Assembly: GCA_025463905.1 (NCBI GenBank)
Contig: JAODBJ010000297.1
Coordinates: 1 to 35,895, forward strand
Origin: Actinomycetes bacterium
GTDB taxonomy: Bacteria; Actinomycetota; Acidimicrobiia; IMCC26256; PALSA-610
Direction: 5' to 3'
DNA length: 35,895 nucleotides
In this document: positions 1,035 through 14,316 of the stretch, in pieces
Position numbering within the stretch: the stretch's first letter is position 1
Layout of the letters: every line of letters starts with the position of its first letter
Made by a program: the position numbers and the translations under genes
Notes under the pieces: model-generated
The model's database searches: none
Seen by the model: the letters and a program-made list of their open reading frames with translations, nothing else
Told to the model about the DNA's origin: nothing

Positions 1035-2333
1035 TTAACGGACGTAACCGAGCTCGTGAGCTTGGCGGTCGAGTTCCTCTCGGAACTTCGGGTGGGCGAT
1101 GCCGATGAGCGCGCGTGCGCGCTCGGCAATCGAGCGGCCGCGTAGCTCGGCGACGCCATACTCGGTCACCACGTGATCGACGGTGTTCTTCATCGTGGTC
1201 ACGGGTGCGCCCTGATAGAGCCGGGCGACGATCCGCGAGATCGTTTCGTCGCTCGTCGTCGCGTGGGTGACCACGAAGCCCATACCGCGCTCCGAGTACA
1301 TCGCGCCGCGAGCAAAGTCGGACTGACCTCCACTACCGGAGTAGTACTTCCCGGCGATCATCTCCGAGTTGCATTGTCCGAGCAGATCAACCTCGATCGT
1401 GGCGTTGATCGACACGAAACAATGTTCGCGGCCGATCACGCGCGGGTCGTTCACCCAGTCGACGGGGAGGAACTCCATCACGCTGTTGTCGTGCAGGAAG
1501 TCGTAGAGGCGCTTGGTGCCCATCGAGAAGGTGGCCACGATCTTGCCGGGACGGGTCACCTTCTGCGTGCCCGTGAGCGCACCCGACTCCAGCAGGTCCA
1601 TCACGCCGTCGCTCATCAGTTCGGTGTGTACGGCGAGATCGCGGTGGTTGTGCAACAACGCGAGGATCGTGTTCGGGATCGCGCCGATGCCGGCTTGGAT
1701 CGTTGCACCATCAGGAATCCGATCGGCCACGAGTTGGGCGATGCGTTCGTCTTTGCGGTCGACCGGAGGCGGTGTGAGCTCGTGTAGTGGATATTCGGCT
1801 TCGGTCCAACCGACGATCTGGCTCACGTGCAGCGTGTTCTCGCCGAACGTGCGCGGCATGTTCGGGTTCACTTCGAGAAAGAACGGCGCCTTGCCGATGA
1901 AGCGCGCGGTGTAGTCGGCGTTGGTGCCGAGCGAGAAGTAACCGTGCCGGTCGGGGGGCGAAGCCGCGGCGAGTAGGAGCGAGCACTTGGTGCTGCGGCG
2001 CAGCAACGCCGGCACTTCACTGAAGTTCGCCGGCACGAGATCGCAGCCACCTTCGAGGAACGCCCGGCGGCTCACTGCGCTCAGAAAGTACGCGATGTGG
2101 CGCAAGTGGTCGCCGTACGCGCCGTGCAGGTAGGGACGGTCGTACAGCGCGTGCATTTGATGCACGCGTACGTGTTCGAGTTCGTTCGCGTGCGCGTCGA
2201 TCGTGTCGAGCAATACCTTCGGTTCGCCCACCGCGAGCGGAACGATCAGGTCGGCGCCGGGGGGGACGAAATCGAGCACCCGCTCGGGTGCAACGGGGTT
2301 TGCGGCCGGGTGCCGTCGATCGATCAACGTCAC
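1035..2333 (-). CDS. acetyl-CoA hydrolase / 4-hydroxybutyrate CoA-transferase family protein
   Basis: 432 aa; family-like segments GIGAIPNTILALL, HTELMSDGVMDLLESGALTG, INATIEVDLLGQCNSEMIAGKYYSGSGGQSDFARGA. Confidence 0.88.
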   Translation of the reverse strand: MTLIDRRHPAANPVAPERVLDFVPPGADLIVPLAVGEPKVLLDTIDAHANELEHVRVHQMHALYDRPYLHGAYGDHLRHIAYFLSAVSRRAFLEGGCDLVPANFSEVPALLRRSTKCSLLLAAASPPDRHGYFSLGTNADYTARFIGKAPFFLEVNPNMPRTFGENTLHVSQIVGWTEAEYPLHELTPPPVDRKDERIAQLVADRIPDGATIQAGIGAIPNTILALLHNHRDLAVHTELMSDGVMDLLESGALTGTQKVTRPGKIVATFSMGTKRLYDFLHDNSVMEFLPVDWVNDPRVIGREHCFVSINATIEVDLLGQCNSEMIAGKYYSGSGGQSDFARGAMYSERGMGFVVTHATTSDETISRIVARLYQGAPVTTMKNTVDHVVTEYGVAELRGRSIAERARALIGIAHPKFREELDRQAHELGYVR

Positions 2334-2342
2334 GGCGCCTTC

Positions 2343-3998
<1,656 letters not shown>

Positions 3999-5492: not shown

Positions 5493-5861
5493 GTGAGTGA
5501 GCAGCAGCCAGGTTTCGGTGGGGGCGTCGACGGCGTGCGGGTGCTGTCGAAACGGTCGCTCGATGTCGATGGCGACGGCACGACGGACCTCGTGGAGACG
5601 GTCACCGAGACGGCGCTCGACGTCGACGGCGACGGCCGGGTGGACGTGCTGGTGACCACGACATCCGTCGAGATGGACGTCGACGGCGACGGAATCCCTG
5701 ACGCGGTGGAGATCACGCAGGTGACCACGATCGACAGCGACGGCGACGGTATCCCCGACGAGAGCGAAGTCACGCAGTTCGACAGCACCAGCGTCCGCGG
5801 AACCGCTGCCGACCACCGTCCGGGCACTTTTCTCGGCGCCCGCGCCGAGAACAATCAGTAA
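5493..5861 (+). CDS. hypothetical protein with four tandem DxDxDG (Ca2+-loop-like) repeats
   Basis: 122 aa; four 19-aa units LDVDGDGTTDLVETVTETA / LDVDGDGRVDVLVTTTSVE / MDVDGDGIPDAVEITQVTT / IDSDGDGIPDESEVTQFDS; ATG/GTG-type start after a purine-rich stretch. Confidence 0.7.
   Translation: MSEQQPGFGGGVDGVRVLSKRSLDVDGDGTTDLVETVTETALDVDGDGRVDVLVTTTSVEMDVDGDGIPDAVEITQVTTIDSDGDGIPDESEVTQFDSTSVRGTAADHRPGTFLGARAENNQ
5559..5786 (+). repeat. 4 x 57-bp in-frame tandem repeat (19-aa unit)
   Basis: Exact 19-residue period of the [LMI]D[VS]DGDG unit in the translation. Confidence 0.8.
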
Positions 5862-6818: not shown

Positions 6819-7634
6819 CTACGACGACGCGCCCGGCGACGGTTGTTCCGTCGGTGCAGCCGCGGGCGCGTCGGCGGTCGTCGCAGCCGCGGTGCCTTCC
6901 TCGGCCGCCGGCGCCGGCAGCCCGAGTTGGGTACGCAGCTCCGACAGGCGTGCCTGCGCCTCGGCGTTCATCTGCGCTTGTTCCACTTCGAGCATGCGGT
7001 GCTCGACCGACGTGCTGGTGAGGTCGGCCATCCCTTGCGCCTTCGCCACCCGGGTCTCGATCTTGTCGCGGATCTGCTCGAACGTGGGAACGTCCTCGCC
7101 GACGGTGGCCGACAGGTCGGACATCGCCCGGTTCATCTGCTCCTGCATCTTCGCCTGGTCGAGCTGCGACAGGAGCTGTTGACGTTCGCTGAGCTTCTTC
7201 TGCAACGCGGACGCGTTCTGTGACACCGCCGACTTCGCGTTGTCGGCATTCTTGGTCGCTTCGAGCAGCATCGCCTTGAGTGACTCGACCTCGCGCTCGA
7301 GCGAGATCATCCGGTTCGCGAACGCCTCGGCCGCGCCCTGGTACTCGGTGGTTTTCCCGGCGTCGGCTTTGCGCGTTGCTTCGTCGGTGAGCATCAGGGC
7401 TTGGCGCGCGTTCGCGGTGACCTTGTTGAGCTCTTCGGTCGCGCGGTCGAGCCGCATCTGTGTCTGCTTCTGGTGCGCGATGACGTTTGCGGCTTGCTCG
7501 GTGAGGCGCTTGTGCTGTTCCTGGGCCTCGGCGATCGCCTGTTCGAGCTGCACCTTGGGGTCGGCGGCCTCCTCGAACCGTCCCGACAGCTTTGCCGTCA
7601 CGTACTTCCACCAGCGGCGAGCGAGCTTCAACAT
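6819..7634 (-). CDS. pspA: PspA/IM30 family protein with Ala/Pro/Thr-rich C-terminal tail
   Basis: MLKLARRWWKYVTAKLSGRFEEAADPKVQLEQAIAEAQEQHKRLTEQAANVIAHQKQ..., long coiled coil typical of PspA; tail LPAPAAEEGTAAATTADAPAAAPTEQPSPGASS. Confidence 0.88.
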   Translation of the reverse strand: MLKLARRWWKYVTAKLSGRFEEAADPKVQLEQAIAEAQEQHKRLTEQAANVIAHQKQTQMRLDRATEELNKVTANARQALMLTDEATRKADAGKTTEYQGAAEAFANRMISLEREVESLKAMLLEATKNADNAKSAVSQNASALQKKLSERQQLLSQLDQAKMQEQMNRAMSDLSATVGEDVPTFEQIRDKIETRVAKAQGMADLTSTSVEHRMLEVEQAQMNAEAQARLSELRTQLGLPAPAAEEGTAAATTADAPAAAPTEQPSPGASS

Positions 7635-7644
7635 GGGCGCGAGC

Positions 7645-8430
7645 CTAGACGTGTCGTTGTTCGGATCGGACCGAGCCGGCCGCGCTCGCTTCTTCGAGGC
7701 CCTGGCGGAGGGATTCGAGATCGCCGACGAGCGAGTCGACGTCGTCGCCCAGGCCGGAAAGCGCCTGCACGTCGTCGGCCTGGAGCGACAACTCCACGGC
7801 TCGCGCTACCGCTTCGTCGAGACGGGCGTCGAGCAATTGGAGGCGGTCGCGGGCGTTGGTCGCCACCTTGGCCAGCCGCTCGCCCGAGTCGATCTGGGCC
7901 TGTAACGCCTGCGCGGTCTGGTCGAGCGATGCGTTCCCGCCCGTGCCGGGCTGAGCGCGCTTCACGGCTTCGAGTTGTGTGCGCGCGTCGTCGAGGTCGA
8001 GAGATCGCACGCCTGCGACCAGCGCGTCACCGCGGCGGGCGACGCGCCAGCACTCGTGCACGGCCGCGTCGACGCGGGTGCCGATCTCCGCCAGCCGGTC
8101 GTGAATCGGCCCGGGGTCGACGGAGCGCACGACGCCGGCGAACCGGCGCTGCGCCTGCAATCCCGCCTGCACGAAACGCGACCACGGCTCGCTCAACGAG
8201 CGCGGATCGATCCGGTCCTCCCGCCGAGCGTGGGGGCCGCGCGGAAGCTTCACCCCGACAACGGCCGCGTACGCGAGCGCGCCCAATCCGATCGCGGCCA
8301 GGAGTGGTGCGCCGGCGAGGACTCCGATCGACGTGCCGATGCCCGCGCCCACGATCGCGGTCGGCGCCATGATCGCTTCACCAGTACGCCTCGCCTTGAG
8401 ATGCTCGGGCAGCCGATCGATGAGGCCCAT
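7645..8430 (-). CDS. hypothetical membrane protein: N-terminal hydrophobic hairpin plus C-terminal helical/coiled-coil domain
   Basis: TAIVGAGIGTSIGVLAGAPLLAAIGLGALAYAAVVGVKL hydrophobic segment followed by charged heptad-like sequence; 10-bp gap to pspA. Confidence 0.7.
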   Translation of the reverse strand: MGLIDRLPEHLKARRTGEAIMAPTAIVGAGIGTSIGVLAGAPLLAAIGLGALAYAAVVGVKLPRGPHARREDRIDPRSLSEPWSRFVQAGLQAQRRFAGVVRSVDPGPIHDRLAEIGTRVDAAVHECWRVARRGDALVAGVRSLDLDDARTQLEAVKRAQPGTGGNASLDQTAQALQAQIDSGERLAKVATNARDRLQLLDARLDEAVARAVELSLQADDVQALSGLGDDVDSLVGDLESLRQGLEEASAAGSVRSEQRHV

Positions 8431-8437
8431 GAGCGGT

Positions 8438-10258
8438 TTAGAAGTTGCTCACGACCGACACGAAGACCTTCGAGATCGTCGTCGGGTCGGACGCGTCGTA
8501 GACCTGGGCGTTGGTTGCCTCGGCGATGCGGCGCAAGGTTTGGAGATCGGCGTCGGCGCCGTACGCGATGGCGAAGATGCGCACCGGTTTTGCCGACTCA
8601 CCTTCGGCCTGCGTCCGCAACGTGCGTAACAAGCCTTCGAGATCGCTGTTGCGTGCGTCCTCGTTGCGACCGTCGGTGAGGAGCACCACGGCATTGATGC
8701 GTTGCGCGTCGAAGGACCCCGACATCGTGTTGTACGCGTCTTGGGTCGCGGTGTAGAGCGGTGTGCCATTTGTCGGAGTGAGGTCTTGCACGCGGCGGAC
8801 GATCTCTTCCCGGTTCGATGCAAGCGGCCCGATCGGTACGAGGTCGAGCGAGTCTTGATTTTGTGACGGTCCGAGGTCGGTGGAGAACACGCGCAAGCCG
8901 ACCTGGTCGTCGGGTTCGAACTGGCTGAGTGCGTTGATCGTCGCGCTCTTGGCGAGATCGAGTTTCGTTTCGCCCGTCGTCTTGTTGCCCGGTTCGCCCA
9001 TCGAACCGGAAATGTCGAGCAAGAGCAGCACCCGGGCGCGCTTGCGGTCGGCGGCCCAACGGTCGAGGAGGGCCGACAGCACCGTGGGCTGCGGGACTTC
9101 GAGCAGCGTCTGCGGTTCGTTCGGATCGACCCCGTTGGCTGCGACGATCGGGCTGCCGACCGGCACCGACGGGTTCCCGGGGCGGAACCCGGCGCGCAAC
9201 ACCGTGCGCTGCGCGTCGGGTCGTTTCACGAAGGCTTGGAAGCGCGCCGCGCCTTCGCGTTGCGTTGCGTTCACCCACGGCGCCTTGAGCACGATGAAGG
9301 GGCTGTCAGAGAACAGCGTCCCTTCCTTCGGATAGATCGCGACGAGCGGGATGCGCGGTTTGCGGGGTTGCTCACCCGGATCGAGGATGCCGTCGGGGTT
9401 GCCCGAGTTGTAGTCGATGACCGACTTCTCCTCGATGGCCACCGCCGACACGTACGTGAGTGACGTTCCGCGCGCGTCGTTGCGGAACCAGTTGTTGAGG
9501 AATGTCATGGTGATGTCGCCGTAGTGCACGACCGACGCCTCCACGCCACGCGCGAACTGTCGGACTTTCGCGTTGTTGAGATCTTCGAGCGAGAGGCCTT
9601 TGGTCTTGCCGGTGGCCGCGTAGTACTGCGCGATGGTCGCGTTCAACGCGCTGGTGGAGTAGTTCGGGTTGGTCTTTCCGAGCCGGAACGGGCCCCACTC
9701 GGGATGCCCGTACTTGCCCCACCCGCGCGGGTCGCGCGAGAGGGCGAGGATGTCGGCATAGCCGACCGGTCGCTGCGGGTAGCCGAGCGCGTCGGCCATG
9801 GGTTTCGGCATCGCGATCACGAGTGGCGTGAGCATGAACGGATCGCTCGGCGGTGCCATCGCCGGTTGTTGTTTCGCGGCCAACCGCTGGTTGAGGATCG
9901 CAGCCCACGAACTCGCGGCCGGTGACCACACCACCGGGCGAGGACCGTTCACCGTGGGGTCGGGCCATCCCTGCGCCAGGAGCGACATCGCAGACCCCGA
10001 CGCTTTGCTTTGCACCCGCACGAACGCGCAGCGGCCGTTGCTCAGCTTGGCGTCGTTCGAACGGTTGAAGTTGCGTGCGAGATCGGAGAGCAACGCGATC
10101 TTCTCCGACGACACGGCGACGTCGACGGCGCTGCACTTGCCCGGATCCCCGAGGCCGCTGCCGCCCGTCGCCGCTGCGCCGGTGTGCTTGCTCGAGCAGG
10201 CGGCGAGGGCAACGAGCACGCACGCAAGCAGCGCGACGAGCACCTTCCTCACCTTCAT
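8438..10258 (-). CDS. lipoprotein with N-terminal substrate-binding-like domain and C-terminal von Willebrand factor A domain
   Basis: Start at internal ATG: MKVRKVLVALLACVLVALAACSS (lipobox LAAC); vWA MIDAS LLLLDISGSMGE ... TNGTPLYTAT ... LLTDGRNED; SBP-like N-terminal half. Confidence 0.88.
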   Translation of the reverse strand: MKVRKVLVALLACVLVALAACSSKHTGAAATGGSGLGDPGKCSAVDVAVSSEKIALLSDLARNFNRSNDAKLSNGRCAFVRVQSKASGSAMSLLAQGWPDPTVNGPRPVVWSPAASSWAAILNQRLAAKQQPAMAPPSDPFMLTPLVIAMPKPMADALGYPQRPVGYADILALSRDPRGWGKYGHPEWGPFRLGKTNPNYSTSALNATIAQYYAATGKTKGLSLEDLNNAKVRQFARGVEASVVHYGDITMTFLNNWFRNDARGTSLTYVSAVAIEEKSVIDYNSGNPDGILDPGEQPRKPRIPLVAIYPKEGTLFSDSPFIVLKAPWVNATQREGAARFQAFVKRPDAQRTVLRAGFRPGNPSVPVGSPIVAANGVDPNEPQTLLEVPQPTVLSALLDRWAADRKRARVLLLLDISGSMGEPGNKTTGETKLDLAKSATINALSQFEPDDQVGLRVFSTDLGPSQNQDSLDLVPIGPLASNREEIVRRVQDLTPTNGTPLYTATQDAYNTMSGSFDAQRINAVVLLTDGRNEDARNSDLEGLLRTLRTQAEGESAKPVRIFAIAYGADADLQTLRRIAEATNAQVYDASDPTTISKVFVSVVSNF

Positions 10259-11334
10259 CCGCCCACCTGTTGTTTCCACAACGTCTGCAATGCGTCGAGC
10301 GTGCCACCCGAAGGAAGGCCGTTGCCGCTCGGCAATGGAGAAGTCGTGACGCCGTCGACTCGAGTTTGACCCGCCACGCGCCACCCCGTACGGGCGAATG
10401 CCATTGCTGCATTGGCGCCCGTCGCGAACTTGGCGAGATCGCCGTTTCCACCCTGCAGTGGCGCGAATACCACGTCCGCGCTCGCCACATCGGAAGGGTA
10501 GACCACCGCGACCTTCGTCTTCAGGGCGGTCTTCGCCAACCCCGGGCCGATCTCAGACTCGAGACCGCCGACCAGCGTCTCGCCCGCGAGCCCGGTTTGC
10601 AGCCACTGCACGAAGGGATCGGCGCCGACGGTCAGCGCGGCTCGAGGGATCGCCGACTCGAGGTTTTGGAACCAGCCGGGAAACGCGTCGCGGTTGATCC
10701 AGTCGTTGCTCGACAGCGCTTCGGCGGGACGCTGCGGCGTCGCGAGGTACGACGCAACGGCTTGCCCGAGCACCAACAGTCCGCTACCGCTGTGCACCGG
10801 CTCCGGGTGCGCGGGCTGCACGGTCCCTCCGACGGTGGGAGCGCCGAGGTCGGCGAACGACTTTCCGGCGACCGTGCCGATGCATCGCCACGTGATCGCT
10901 CCGGCGCAACGCTTCGCGAGCAACTGTTCCCGATCGCGGCGTACCGCGATCACGAGCGCCGACCGCGCCACGCGCGCCGAGACGGTGCCGAATACCGATG
11001 GGTCGCCGGCGCGTTGGCGCCGTTCGCTCACGATCTGCGGCCACGGCGCGAGGGTGAGCCAACCGTCGATCCCGACCGCGGTCGCATCGGGTGCGCTCAC
11101 GATCCGCTGTGCGGTGTCGCCCGCCGCCTCGATGATCACCTGCACATGACCGCCGGACGCGCGCTCGATCGCGTTGCACGCGTCGGCCAGTTCCGTGGCG
11201 CACGCCAAACGAGCGACGCCTTTCGCGCTCGTGGTGCCGTTGTTCTTCTTGTCGAACACCGATGAGCGCAGCACGGTCGCGCCCAGCACCATCGCCGCCG
11301 CGACGAGGAGCGCGAGCAGGCGCTTCGCGATCAC
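10255..11334 (-). CDS. membrane-anchored extracytoplasmic SBP-like protein
   Basis: GTG start, VIAKRLLALLVAAAMVLGATV signal anchor; periplasmic-binding-like sequence related in style to the SBP half of the adjacent vWA lipoprotein; 4-nt overlaps with both neighbours. Confidence 0.7.
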   Translation of the reverse strand: MIAKRLLALLVAAAMVLGATVLRSSVFDKKNNGTTSAKGVARLACATELADACNAIERASGGHVQVIIEAAGDTAQRIVSAPDATAVGIDGWLTLAPWPQIVSERRQRAGDPSVFGTVSARVARSALVIAVRRDREQLLAKRCAGAITWRCIGTVAGKSFADLGAPTVGGTVQPAHPEPVHSGSGLLVLGQAVASYLATPQRPAEALSSNDWINRDAFPGWFQNLESAIPRAALTVGADPFVQWLQTGLAGETLVGGLESEIGPGLAKTALKTKVAVVYPSDVASADVVFAPLQGGNGDLAKFATGANAAMAFARTGWRVAGQTRVDGVTTSPLPSGNGLPSGGTLDALQTLWKQQVGG

Positions 11335-12782
11335 TGCGCCGCGCCGTGGTCCGCGGTGTCGTCGGCGAGTGGTGCACCCGGCTCGAGGATGTCGGCCGGG
11401 AGCAGCGTGCACAGATCGTCTTTGGTGGGCGACTCGATCTCGACGACCCGCGTCGCGTGGCGCGCCACCGCGGCTTCGAACAAGTTGCGCGCGAGGCGGG
11501 CATTGCCGAACGACGCGTCGCGCGGTTGCGCGTCGAGGAACTCACGCGCGCGGGCGATGACTTCTGGTGTCGAGTGGTACTGCGCCTCCTCGCCGATCGA
11601 CGTGAACACCGACAGCAGGTCGTCGGTGGAGTAGTCGGGGAAGAGGATCGTCTTCGGGAAACGCGACCGCAGCCCGGGGTTCGAGTCGAGGAAGCGTTTC
11701 ATTGGTGATGGATAACCCGCCGCGACCACCACCAGGCGTTCGCGGTCGTCTTCCATCAGCTTCAACAACGTCGCAATCGCCTCCGCGCCGAAGTCGGCGG
11801 AGGCGTCGACCCACAAGGCATACGCCTCGTCGATGAAGAGCATGCCGTCGAGTGCCGACTGCACGACGTTTTGGACCCGCTCGGCGGTCTGACCCACATA
11901 CCCCGACACGAGGCCGCTGCGATCGGTTTCCACGAGGTGGCCTTTGGCGAGCGTGCCGAGGACCGCGTAGATGCGGGCGAGGAGGCGAGCGACGGTCGTC
12001 TTGCCGGTGCCAGGGTTGCCGACGAACACGAGGTGCCGGCTGCGGTCGGGTACGGGCAGATCGTGTTCGCGGCGCAGCCGTTCGACGCGCGTGAGGTTCA
12101 CGATGAGCCGCACTTCGGTTTTGACGTCGTCGAGACCGACGAGGCGGTCCAGCTCGTCGAGCAAGGCGTCGAGCGTCGGTGCGATGACTGGTTGCTCGCC
12201 AGGCAGGCCACCGAGCGCCGCCGGGTCGGTCCACTCGTCGTGCGCGCGTGCCGACAGACCGCCGGCCGGCAACGGCCGTTCGATCGCGGCCCGCTTGAGA
12301 TGCTCGAGCAGCATCGTGCGATAGCGGTCGAGCGCGCGAAGGCTGTCGGCCGTGGGCAGGTCGGCCAGCGCGCCCATCGCGTGCCCGATCCCGAGCGCGG
12401 CTTCGTAGTACGCCCATGCGTTTGCGGTGCGGTTGCGCACGTCGTTGGTGACGAGCTGCTCGAACAACACCGACGGTTGGTCGATGAAATGCGCGTCGCG
12501 CGTCACGACATCGCTGGTTCGCAGCTTCGTGAGCGGACCATTCGCGAGTTCGGGTTCACTGACCCCGAAGGTGCGGCGCAGCGCGAGGAGTTGGTCGTCA
12601 CCCAACCGGCCGTCGGCGGAAAGGAACCCGGCCGCCAGGTGCCGCGTTTCGGTACGGAGTCCTTCGGTGATGCGGTCGGGGTCGGCGCCGCGAGCTTCGG
12701 GCCACGCGAGCACGACCGGTCGGAGCCGTTCGATGAACTCGCGTACCGCGTCGCCGAGCGGCCGCTCGCGTTCGGCAGTCAC
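11331..12782 (-). CDS. AAA+ ATPase, CbbX/SpoVK/EccA-like, with about 170-aa helical N-terminal domain
   Basis: GTG start inferred from GTGA overlap; LVGLDDVKTEVRLIVNL, Walker A VFVGNPGTGKTTVARLL, pore-loop-like SGYVGQTAERV, Walker B GMLFIDEAYAL, sensor VVVAAGY. Track ORF is over-extended. Confidence 0.9.
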   Translation of the reverse strand: MTAERERPLGDAVREFIERLRPVVLAWPEARGADPDRITEGLRTETRHLAAGFLSADGRLGDDQLLALRRTFGVSEPELANGPLTKLRTSDVVTRDAHFIDQPSVLFEQLVTNDVRNRTANAWAYYEAALGIGHAMGALADLPTADSLRALDRYRTMLLEHLKRAAIERPLPAGGLSARAHDEWTDPAALGGLPGEQPVIAPTLDALLDELDRLVGLDDVKTEVRLIVNLTRVERLRREHDLPVPDRSRHLVFVGNPGTGKTTVARLLARIYAVLGTLAKGHLVETDRSGLVSGYVGQTAERVQNVVQSALDGMLFIDEAYALWVDASADFGAEAIATLLKLMEDDRERLVVVAAGYPSPMKRFLDSNPGLRSRFPKTILFPDYSTDDLLSVFTSIGEEAQYHSTPEVIARAREFLDAQPRDASFGNARLARNLFEAAVARHATRVVEIESPTKDDLCTLLPADILEPGAPLADDTADHGAAQ

Positions 12783-13711
12783 GCCGTCGTCGGTTCGGGC
12801 CGCGCCGGCGCGCCGCGGAGCCAACCGGCGACGACCTCCACGAGCAGGTCGGGCGCTTCGAAGAGCGGAAGATGGCCGCACTCGAGCACCTCGATCCGCC
12901 AGTCGGGGCGTTGGCGCGACACGGCCTCGGCCAAGGCCAGCGGCACGAGCGGATCGTCGCGACCGTGCACCACCAGCGTGCGGGCGCGAACGGTCGCGAC
13001 ATCGGATGCCATCGTCGTGGCGAGGTAGGGGAGCGTCGTTCGGATCGCGTCGTGGTATGCGCGCCCGGCGCCGCCGTCCGCGTAGCGCGTCGCCGTGAGC
13101 TCGATCAACGCGTCTCGTACGCCGCTGTCGAAGGAGCCCGGATCGACGCCGGACGCGCGCAGACTTACGTCGACGACGCGTTCCGCCCCGAGGCGTCGCG
13201 CCCGCGCGTCGATGAGCCACGGCCCGGCCATCGGGATCGACGCGGCCGCGAACACGGCGAGGTTGCGCAGGTGCCGGGGCGACGGCATACGGCGCACGAG
13301 CGGAAGGGCCGGGTTCACGAGAACGAGCGAATCGACATGGTCGGGTTCGCGAACCGCACAGCGCAGCGCGACCGTTCCCCCCATCGAGTTGCCGACGAGC
13401 ACGGCTGGCCCGATCGAGCGGAGGTACGCCGCGAGCAGGCGCGTGTTCGCGTCGAGCGTCGAACGCGCGGTGGTAGTGGTGCGCCCGAAACCAATGAGAT
13501 CCACTGCACTCACGGTGGTGCCGAGCGCGTCGGCGAAGAGTTGGCCGACCAGGTACCAGTTGATCGTGCACCCGCCGAGGCCGTGCACGAGCACGACGGG
13601 AAGCGGATCGCGATCAGCGCCTGCATGGGCTCCGGATGTGGGCAGCCACTCGGCGACGTGCATGCGGGCGCCGTCGACGCGCACGTAGTGACTACGCGGT
13701 TCGGCAATCAC
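12779..13711 (-). CDS. alpha/beta hydrolase
   Basis: VVLVHGLGGCTINWYLVGQLF, nucleophile elbow VLVGNSMGGTVAL, LVVHGRDDPLVPL, ECGHLPLFEAPDLL; GTG start (VIAEPRSHYVRVDGARMHVAEW) overlaps the upstream stop. Confidence 0.9.
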   Translation of the reverse strand: MIAEPRSHYVRVDGARMHVAEWLPTSGAHAGADRDPLPVVLVHGLGGCTINWYLVGQLFADALGTTVSAVDLIGFGRTTTTARSTLDANTRLLAAYLRSIGPAVLVGNSMGGTVALRCAVREPDHVDSLVLVNPALPLVRRMPSPRHLRNLAVFAAASIPMAGPWLIDARARRLGAERVVDVSLRASGVDPGSFDSGVRDALIELTATRYADGGAGRAYHDAIRTTLPYLATTMASDVATVRARTLVVHGRDDPLVPLALAEAVSRQRPDWRIEVLECGHLPLFEAPDLLVEVVAGWLRGAPARPEPTTA

Positions 13712-14316
13712 GCACGTACCTCGTCGGACCGTTCGATCCCCAAACCGAGGAGAAGGTCTTCGTGTAGCTGCATCCACACCGTGTGGTACGAGTCGAGCCG
13801 CGGCGACGTGAACCAATCGGCCTCGCCCTCCTCGACCTTGGCGAACGCCGCGGCGAGCCGACCGCGGTACGCGCCGAAGCGTTCGGACGACTTCGTCATC
13901 GAGCGGGCCACGGGACCGAGCCGTTCATGGATCCGCGCCAAGCGGTCGATCACGGCCCAGTCGTACTCGACGTCGGTGTGGTCGTTCGGGCCGCCGGAGT
14001 GCACCTGCCAGTCGTTGCACACGCGGATGAGCTCATCGTTGAGCGGGAGGAAGCGTTCGTACGCGAGTCGCAGATCGGCCTCACTTGCGGAGCCGGCCTC
14101 GATCCGCGCCCAGCGCGCGTGTCGCTCCCGCCCCTCGGCAGTGATCATCAACGTGGTGCGCTTGCGGACCGCGAAACCACTCTCCACGAGCACGTCGGCA
14201 GGGGACACGGAGGATTCGTGGGCCCCGCGCACCATGTCTCCCTCGACGTTGCCGTCGAGTTTGCCCCGGAGACGTAGCTCATGGAGCAGCGCCCACGCCG
14301 CATGGTCGAGCTCCAT
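13708..14316 (-). CDS. hypothetical protein with N-terminal winged-helix-like region
   Basis: MELDHAAWALLHELRLRGKLDGNV...DVLVESGFAVRKRTTLMITAEGRERHARW resembles wHTH helices plus wing; start inferred inside the over-extended track ORF. Confidence 0.6.
   Translation of the reverse strand: MELDHAAWALLHELRLRGKLDGNVEGDMVRGAHESSVSPADVLVESGFAVRKRTTLMITAEGRERHARWARIEAGSASEADLRLAYERFLPLNDELIRVCNDWQVHSGGPNDHTDVEYDWAVIDRLARIHERLGPVARSMTKSSERFGAYRGRLAAAFAKVEEGEADWFTSPRLDSYHTVWMQLHEDLLLGLGIERSDEVRA

Follow-up and report, generated by a model that had tools for sequence, protein, structure and literature searches.

What might an operon do in which PspA, a protein of the ESCRT-III superfamily, is encoded together with an AAA+ ATPase and two extracytoplasmic binding-type proteins? 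The question is raised by a locus in a 35,895-nucleotide stretch of actinomycete DNA (hereafter, the window; contig JAODBJ010000297.1), from a genome of 4.8 Mb in 366 contigs that is 94.7% complete. Gene re-calling placed seven operon genes on the minus strand, at coordinates identical to those of an earlier sequence-only reading, and reproduced exactly the four 4-nt overlaps (13708-13711, 12779-12782, 11331-11334, and 10255-10258) and the gaps of 7 bp before and 10 bp after the gene for a 2-TM protein, P2. From the first gene to the last, these encode a wHTH-like helical protein of unassigned family, without a Pfam or NCBIfam match (13708-14316), an alpha/beta hydrolase (12779-13711; PF12697, Abhydrolase_6, 7e-24), the AAA+ ATPase (11331-12782), an SBP-like protein (10255-11334), an SBP-vWA lipoprotein (8438-10258), P2 (7645-8430), and PspA (6819-7634). 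We conclude that the operon is a new variant on the Psp/ESCRT-III theme. More specifically, and with a probability of roughly one half, we read it as a lineage-specific actinobacterial Psp (phage-shock-protein) variant system, in which AAA+ remodelling would be combined with a P2 anchor and SBP sensors.

In GC-rich actinobacteria a single 4-nt overlap is commonplace, and the evidential weight of those seen here therefore lies in their conservation: the AAA/SBP-like overlap is kept in 23 of 42 loci and the SBP-like/SBP-vWA overlap in 34 of 48. A promoter and terminator scan of the locus gave no more matches than expected by chance and no promoter-like site, and Rfam had zero matches within the window. 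As the sequence-only reading had noted, Pfam detects neither an ABC permease nor an ABC ATPase in the operon or its adjoining genes, and the locus is thus not recognizable as an ABC importer. Just upstream of a neighboring cation-efflux gene, the window also encodes a small protein with repeated DxDGDG motifs, of FG-GAP/TSP3-like calcium-binding type (5493-5861).

The last gene of the operon encodes a member of the PspA family (PF04012, PspA_IM30; 1.5e-32, 113.5 bits against a cut-off of 33.9), whose sequence matches Vipp1/PspA structures (3e-9). It is the only PspA of its genome, which holds a single PF04012 match. Pfam domains of the known partners PspB, PspC, PspF, ClgR, and Lia were found neither in the seven genes nor in the tested flanks. 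Two PspC-domain matches do occur in the same genome, on opposite strands of another contig (C134; L144 and L145), away from PspA.

In place of such partners, the gene next to PspA encodes P2, which has two hydrophobic segments near its N-terminus (residues about 20-60) followed by a long helical region that is probably cytoplasmic. By hydropathy, the two SBP-type proteins have a single such segment each, at the N-terminus, and the other operon proteins have none. The AlphaFold2 model of P2 is all helical (pLDDT 86), and we regard the protein as a predicted membrane anchor. The P2, SBP-like, and wHTH-like proteins of the window did not themselves match any Pfam family significantly, and a structure search with P2 returned no match below 0.001. 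A resemblance of the P2 C-terminus to XpaC (PF10112) was considered and rejected, as none of 28 family members has a Pfam match. Two relatives have a second P2 paralogue, immediately ahead of the SBP-like gene on its upstream side (L031, 8311-9063; L037, 8017-8748).

The AAA+ ATPase carries an AAA domain (8e-18) and an AAA_lid_6 domain (8.4e-19). Its best NCBIfam match is SpoVK (259.9 bits against a cut-off of 422.95), followed by EccA (224.2 against 466.65) and CbbX (219.4 against 459.25); all three scores fall far below the curated cut-offs, and the protein is not SpoVK, CbbX, or EccA proper. CbbX and EccA1 are its closest solved sequences and CbbX its closest fold, with 38-40% identity in structural alignment. 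The catalytic residues are intact: Walker A and Walker B (D318, E319) are invariant in the family, as are the GY signature (G356-Y357), N368, R374, and R429/R432 in 28 sequences, the Asn/Arg assignment being our own reading, with N368 six residues before R374 where the published spacing is four. Judged by sequence, then, the protein is a member of the SpoVK/CbbX/EccA clade, dedicated chaperones with variable N-domains (PMC10659427), and not a Vps4. It departs from the known members of that clade in its scores, in its different N-terminal domain, and in having PspA and MurJ as neighbors.

That N-terminal domain (residues 1-165) is distinctive, all helical, and confidently modelled (pLDDT 90 for the AAA+ model), and no detectable family was found for it. 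A TerB fold, suggested by 'ADG...E' motifs, had no Pfam match in 28 members and an hhalign probability of 0.6% against true TerB. A MIT domain was likewise rejected; MIT-containing chains were among the top PDB matches of the profile, at non-significant E-values of 0.6-1.2. The ATPase is thus not of the Vps4 type with a MIT domain, its best models being SpoVK, EccA, and CbbX. Nor do the operon proteins form a MoxR-vWA pair, AAA_5 overlapping the AAA+ only below threshold (21.9 against 22 bits), or a Ter/Tel system, as TerB, TerD, and TelA domains have no Pfam match among them.

The claim that two SBP-like extracytoplasmic proteins are present, one of them fused to vWA, was borne out. The SBP-vWA protein matches SBP_bac_11 (8.8e-15) and VWA (1.9e-13), has a lipobox (LAAC) close to its N-terminus, a feature that most of its operon-encoded relatives share, and a complete MIDAS (D415, S417, S419, T499, and D529), invariant in 21 sequences. 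The SBP-like protein has one N-terminal hydrophobic anchor, is predicted to be extracytoplasmic, and contains conserved cysteines; its assignment rests on two of 16 aligned family members that match SBP_bac_11 (best 4.6e-5), and a PDB search with it gave nothing significant. In distant SBP-vWA proteins of Streptomyces, a single hydrophobic segment connects the module to a fused domain, caspase-like in L047 (9086-11779) and PNP_UDP_1, phosphorylase/nucleosidase-like, in L048 (8840-11701). The likely topology places the effector inside and the SBP-vWA outside, and these fusions look like membrane-spanning sensor-effector proteins. They fit an outside-to-inside sensor and lend support, by analogy only, to a sensor role for the SBP-vWA of the operon. 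One further SBP-vWA protein (L092, 7777-11073) has, by eye, an N-terminus like that of the PNP_UDP_1 fusion.

Does the association extend beyond close relatives? A search for SBP-vWA across 84,980 species gave 37 loci, mostly in Acidimicrobiia or its orders and families, the rest labelled only Actinomycetota; the nearest named relatives (L015 and L016) are Acidimicrobiia. Gene order, read with profiles of five families, recurs among relatives as AAA - SBP-like - SBP-vWA - P2 - PspA, and the conserved unit, usually with MurJ before PspA, is found in about 40 loci, mostly Acidimicrobiia. The complete order with MurJ occurs in 20 loci and the identical order without it in eight more. SBP-vWA and PspA share a strand in 42 loci, a figure that counts all arrangements, including loci that are not independent and two distant versions with only PspA, a 2-TM-type protein, and SBP-vWA (L091 and L096). 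Of the loci that lack PspA, seven run into the end of their contig, and such cases make up most of the true-orthologue exceptions to this linkage; in L037 PspA is inverted about 1 kb downstream, and true rearrangement or reduction is seen in L100 and L101. Strong versions also appear in genomes labelled only 'same phylum', in a search of 296 phylum genomes, with matching order in seven loci (L083 and L085-L090), one of which (L083) has no AAA+ at the locus, the AAA+ of that genome being on another contig. The association thus recurs across Acidimicrobiia and beyond, and the refuting outcome named with the earlier reading, an association confined to close relatives, did not occur.

The 'seven-gene operon' describes the window well, but the conserved unit is different. 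A hydrolase-like gene lies upstream of the AAA+ in only a few relatives (L043, L098, L099, and L159), and the wHTH-like gene recurs only in L015, L016, and L101; both are peripheral, accessory to the unit. In L101, whose genus belongs to the same family as the source of the window, a diverged SBP-vWA gene overlaps the wHTH-like gene and adjoins a cation-efflux gene as in the window (1373-3696). AAA+, SBP-like, P2, and PspA are absent nearby, an apparent reduced operon, and SBP-vWA is also present in three other genomes of that genus (G008, G011, and G013). The SBP genes, too, can be lost. Three good genomes of the class (L151-L153) keep AAA-P2-MurJ-PspA with no intact SBP genes, one of them (L153) retaining an SBP-like remnant of 120 aa, and so the extracytoplasmic SBP proteins look like add-ons. 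Elsewhere, P2 is followed by MurJ where SBP-vWA is absent (G322, L173), and two loci retain PspA where AAA+ is absent (L154 and L155). In our view, then, the core consists of AAA, P2, and PspA, joined by MurJ in most lineages, and the SBP pair is a frequent supplement of sensor-like character. The conserved association supports the earlier idea that PspA and an AAA+ of its own belong to a self-contained module of the envelope, but the boundaries of that module shift: the hydrolase and wHTH-like genes fall outside the unit, the SBPs are dispensable in some lineages, and MurJ, a usual member, is missing from the window operon. As a separate observation, four loci that have AAA-P2-MurJ-PspA or MurJ-PspA and no SBP-vWA carry nearby, on the opposite strand, a gene for a MoxR-like ATPase together with another that is of vWA/CoxE type by eye (L151, 7808-10207; L152, 9180-11603; L153, 10415-12814; L154, 5967-8355).

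The families themselves are nearly confined to this system. P2 occurs in 16 of the 296 phylum genomes and the AAA+ N-domain, as strong matches, likewise in 16, and 14 genomes are common to both, from which we take the two families to be practically restricted to it; the Fisher value of 4e-20 is uncorrected for relatedness and overstates the case. Distance matrices of AAA, SBP-vWA, P2, and PspA, compared among themselves over 36 loci, correlate at r = 0.71-0.81, which fits inheritance as a unit. Co-inheritance of the operon genes is well shown. An operon neighborhood is, of course, not proof of a physical complex.

The recurrent extra gene is itself informative. First recognized by eye, it is MurJ, the lipid II flippase, by Pfam (1.2e-73 and 1.5e-64 in two loci), and it directly follows P2 in 29 loci, with a 4-nt P2-MurJ overlap in 25 of them. 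The genome of the window has two MurJ genes on other contigs. MurG, which synthesizes lipid II, is reportedly activated by SpoVK (PMC10659427). With an AAA+ of the SpoVK/CbbX/EccA clade sharing an operon with both MurJ and PspA, the ATPase has two natural targets.

How, then, might these proteins act together? We envisage that PspA would form polymers on the cytoplasmic side of the membrane, wherever this is damaged or under strain, and that P2 would anchor and position PspA through direct contact, the job of PspC, LiaI, or PspM elsewhere. The AAA+ ring may be recruited through its own N-terminal helical domain to remodel or dismantle membrane-bound assemblies, perhaps PspA polymers, as Vps4 does on ESCRT-III, and/or the lipid-II machinery, as SpoVK does on MurG. 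Outside, the lipid-anchored SBP-vWA and the membrane-anchored SBP-like protein would bind an extracytoplasmic ligand and report the state of the wall or membrane. Perhaps the process watched or protected is the export of cell-wall precursors, to which the frequent MurJ gene points. Taken together, this suggests a system that couples membrane repair to cell-wall state. A more ambitious version is an ESCRT-III-like bacterial membrane-repair machine, with a non-Vps4 AAA+ as its own disassembly motor and a dedicated 2-TM anchor that would link it both to the extracytoplasmic SBP/vWA sensors and to MurJ and its flipping of lipid II; we hold this as tentative and, on balance, doubtful.

The strongest rival makes the AAA+ a SpoVK-like chaperone of lipid-II or peptidoglycan synthesis, whose substrate would be MurJ, MurG, or some enzyme of the wall, with PspA co-expressed since wall synthesis strains the membrane rather than serving as its target. 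The SpoVK match and its reported action on MurG favor this, as do the dedicated chaperones said to make up the clade (PMC10659427) and the MurJ gene within the operon of most relatives. Against it, the window and 18 other loci have no MurJ between P2 and PspA and yet retain PspA, and the AAA tree correlates best with that of PspA (0.81, 36 loci), though all correlations are similar in size. We consider it unlikely. Conserved clusters often hold proteins that are functionally related and do not interact, and the operon could be such a house-keeping envelope cluster, of growth-linked genes for wall and membrane maintenance co-expressed with no dedicated signalling or complex. That MurJ is a house-keeping gene, and that MurJ and the SBP genes come and go, would agree with this; the near confinement of P2 and the AAA+ N-domain to the cluster, the conserved 4-nt overlaps, and the strict order over long distances make it improbable. 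Finally, a biological-conflict or phage-defence operon with PspA as guard of membrane integrity, suggested by the Streptomyces effector fusions and by weak matches of the AAA+ to defence AAA models, seems very improbable given the lineage-wide distribution with MurJ, the absence of a toxin-like effector from the operon, and the lack of any PADLOC match for the window proteins beyond weak generic AAA matches.

The favored reading, a Psp variant, can be set beside known systems. Actinobacterial Psp operons (ClgR-PspA-PspM-PspN, PspA-PspAA, and PspA-metallopeptidase-PspAB) likewise pair PspA with a small membrane protein, and PspM, like P2, has two TM segments (PMC11237479); ClgR, PspN, PspAA, PspAB, and two-component genes are, in contrast, not recognized in the present operon. 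Four loci from other families of the class (L115, L116, L124, and L129) have PspA next to a metallopeptidase-like gene and one further gene, an arrangement that by eye corresponds to PspA-metallopeptidase-PspAB. Among the PspA partners reported by two large surveys of Psp neighborhoods, of which PMC11237479 is one, are Vps4-like and double AAA+ ATPases as well as ABC/PBP genes. The PspA/Snf7 operons with classical AAA+, sometimes with ABC genes and PBP-OmpA, share with ours PspA, an AAA+, and a solute-binding-type protein in one operon; the bacterial PspA cases described there use a protein with two AAA domains, their longer operons adding an ABC ATPase and permease (PMC11237479), whereas here a single AAA domain of the SpoVK/CbbX/EccA clade occurs with vWA and no ABC genes. 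ESCRT-III/Vps4 (CdvB/CdvC) also unites an ESCRT-III-superfamily protein and an AAA+ in one operon, but the AAA+ here is not Vps4-like in sequence. A SpoVK/CbbX/EccA-clade AAA+, SBP-vWA, and MurJ are not named as PspA partners in the main texts of the two surveys, nor are von Willebrand or MviN partners mentioned there. A literature search on PspA with MurJ, or with Acidimicrobiia, found nothing relevant.

What makes the locus significant is the joint inheritance of one particular AAA+ with PspA, which extends through much of a bacterial class and outside it. The parts are few and well defined, and Aquihabitans sp. G128 (L045) and Desertimonas flava (L037) are cultured hosts, so that the question becomes open to direct test; the recurring link to MurJ also offers a specific hypothesis about what is being protected.
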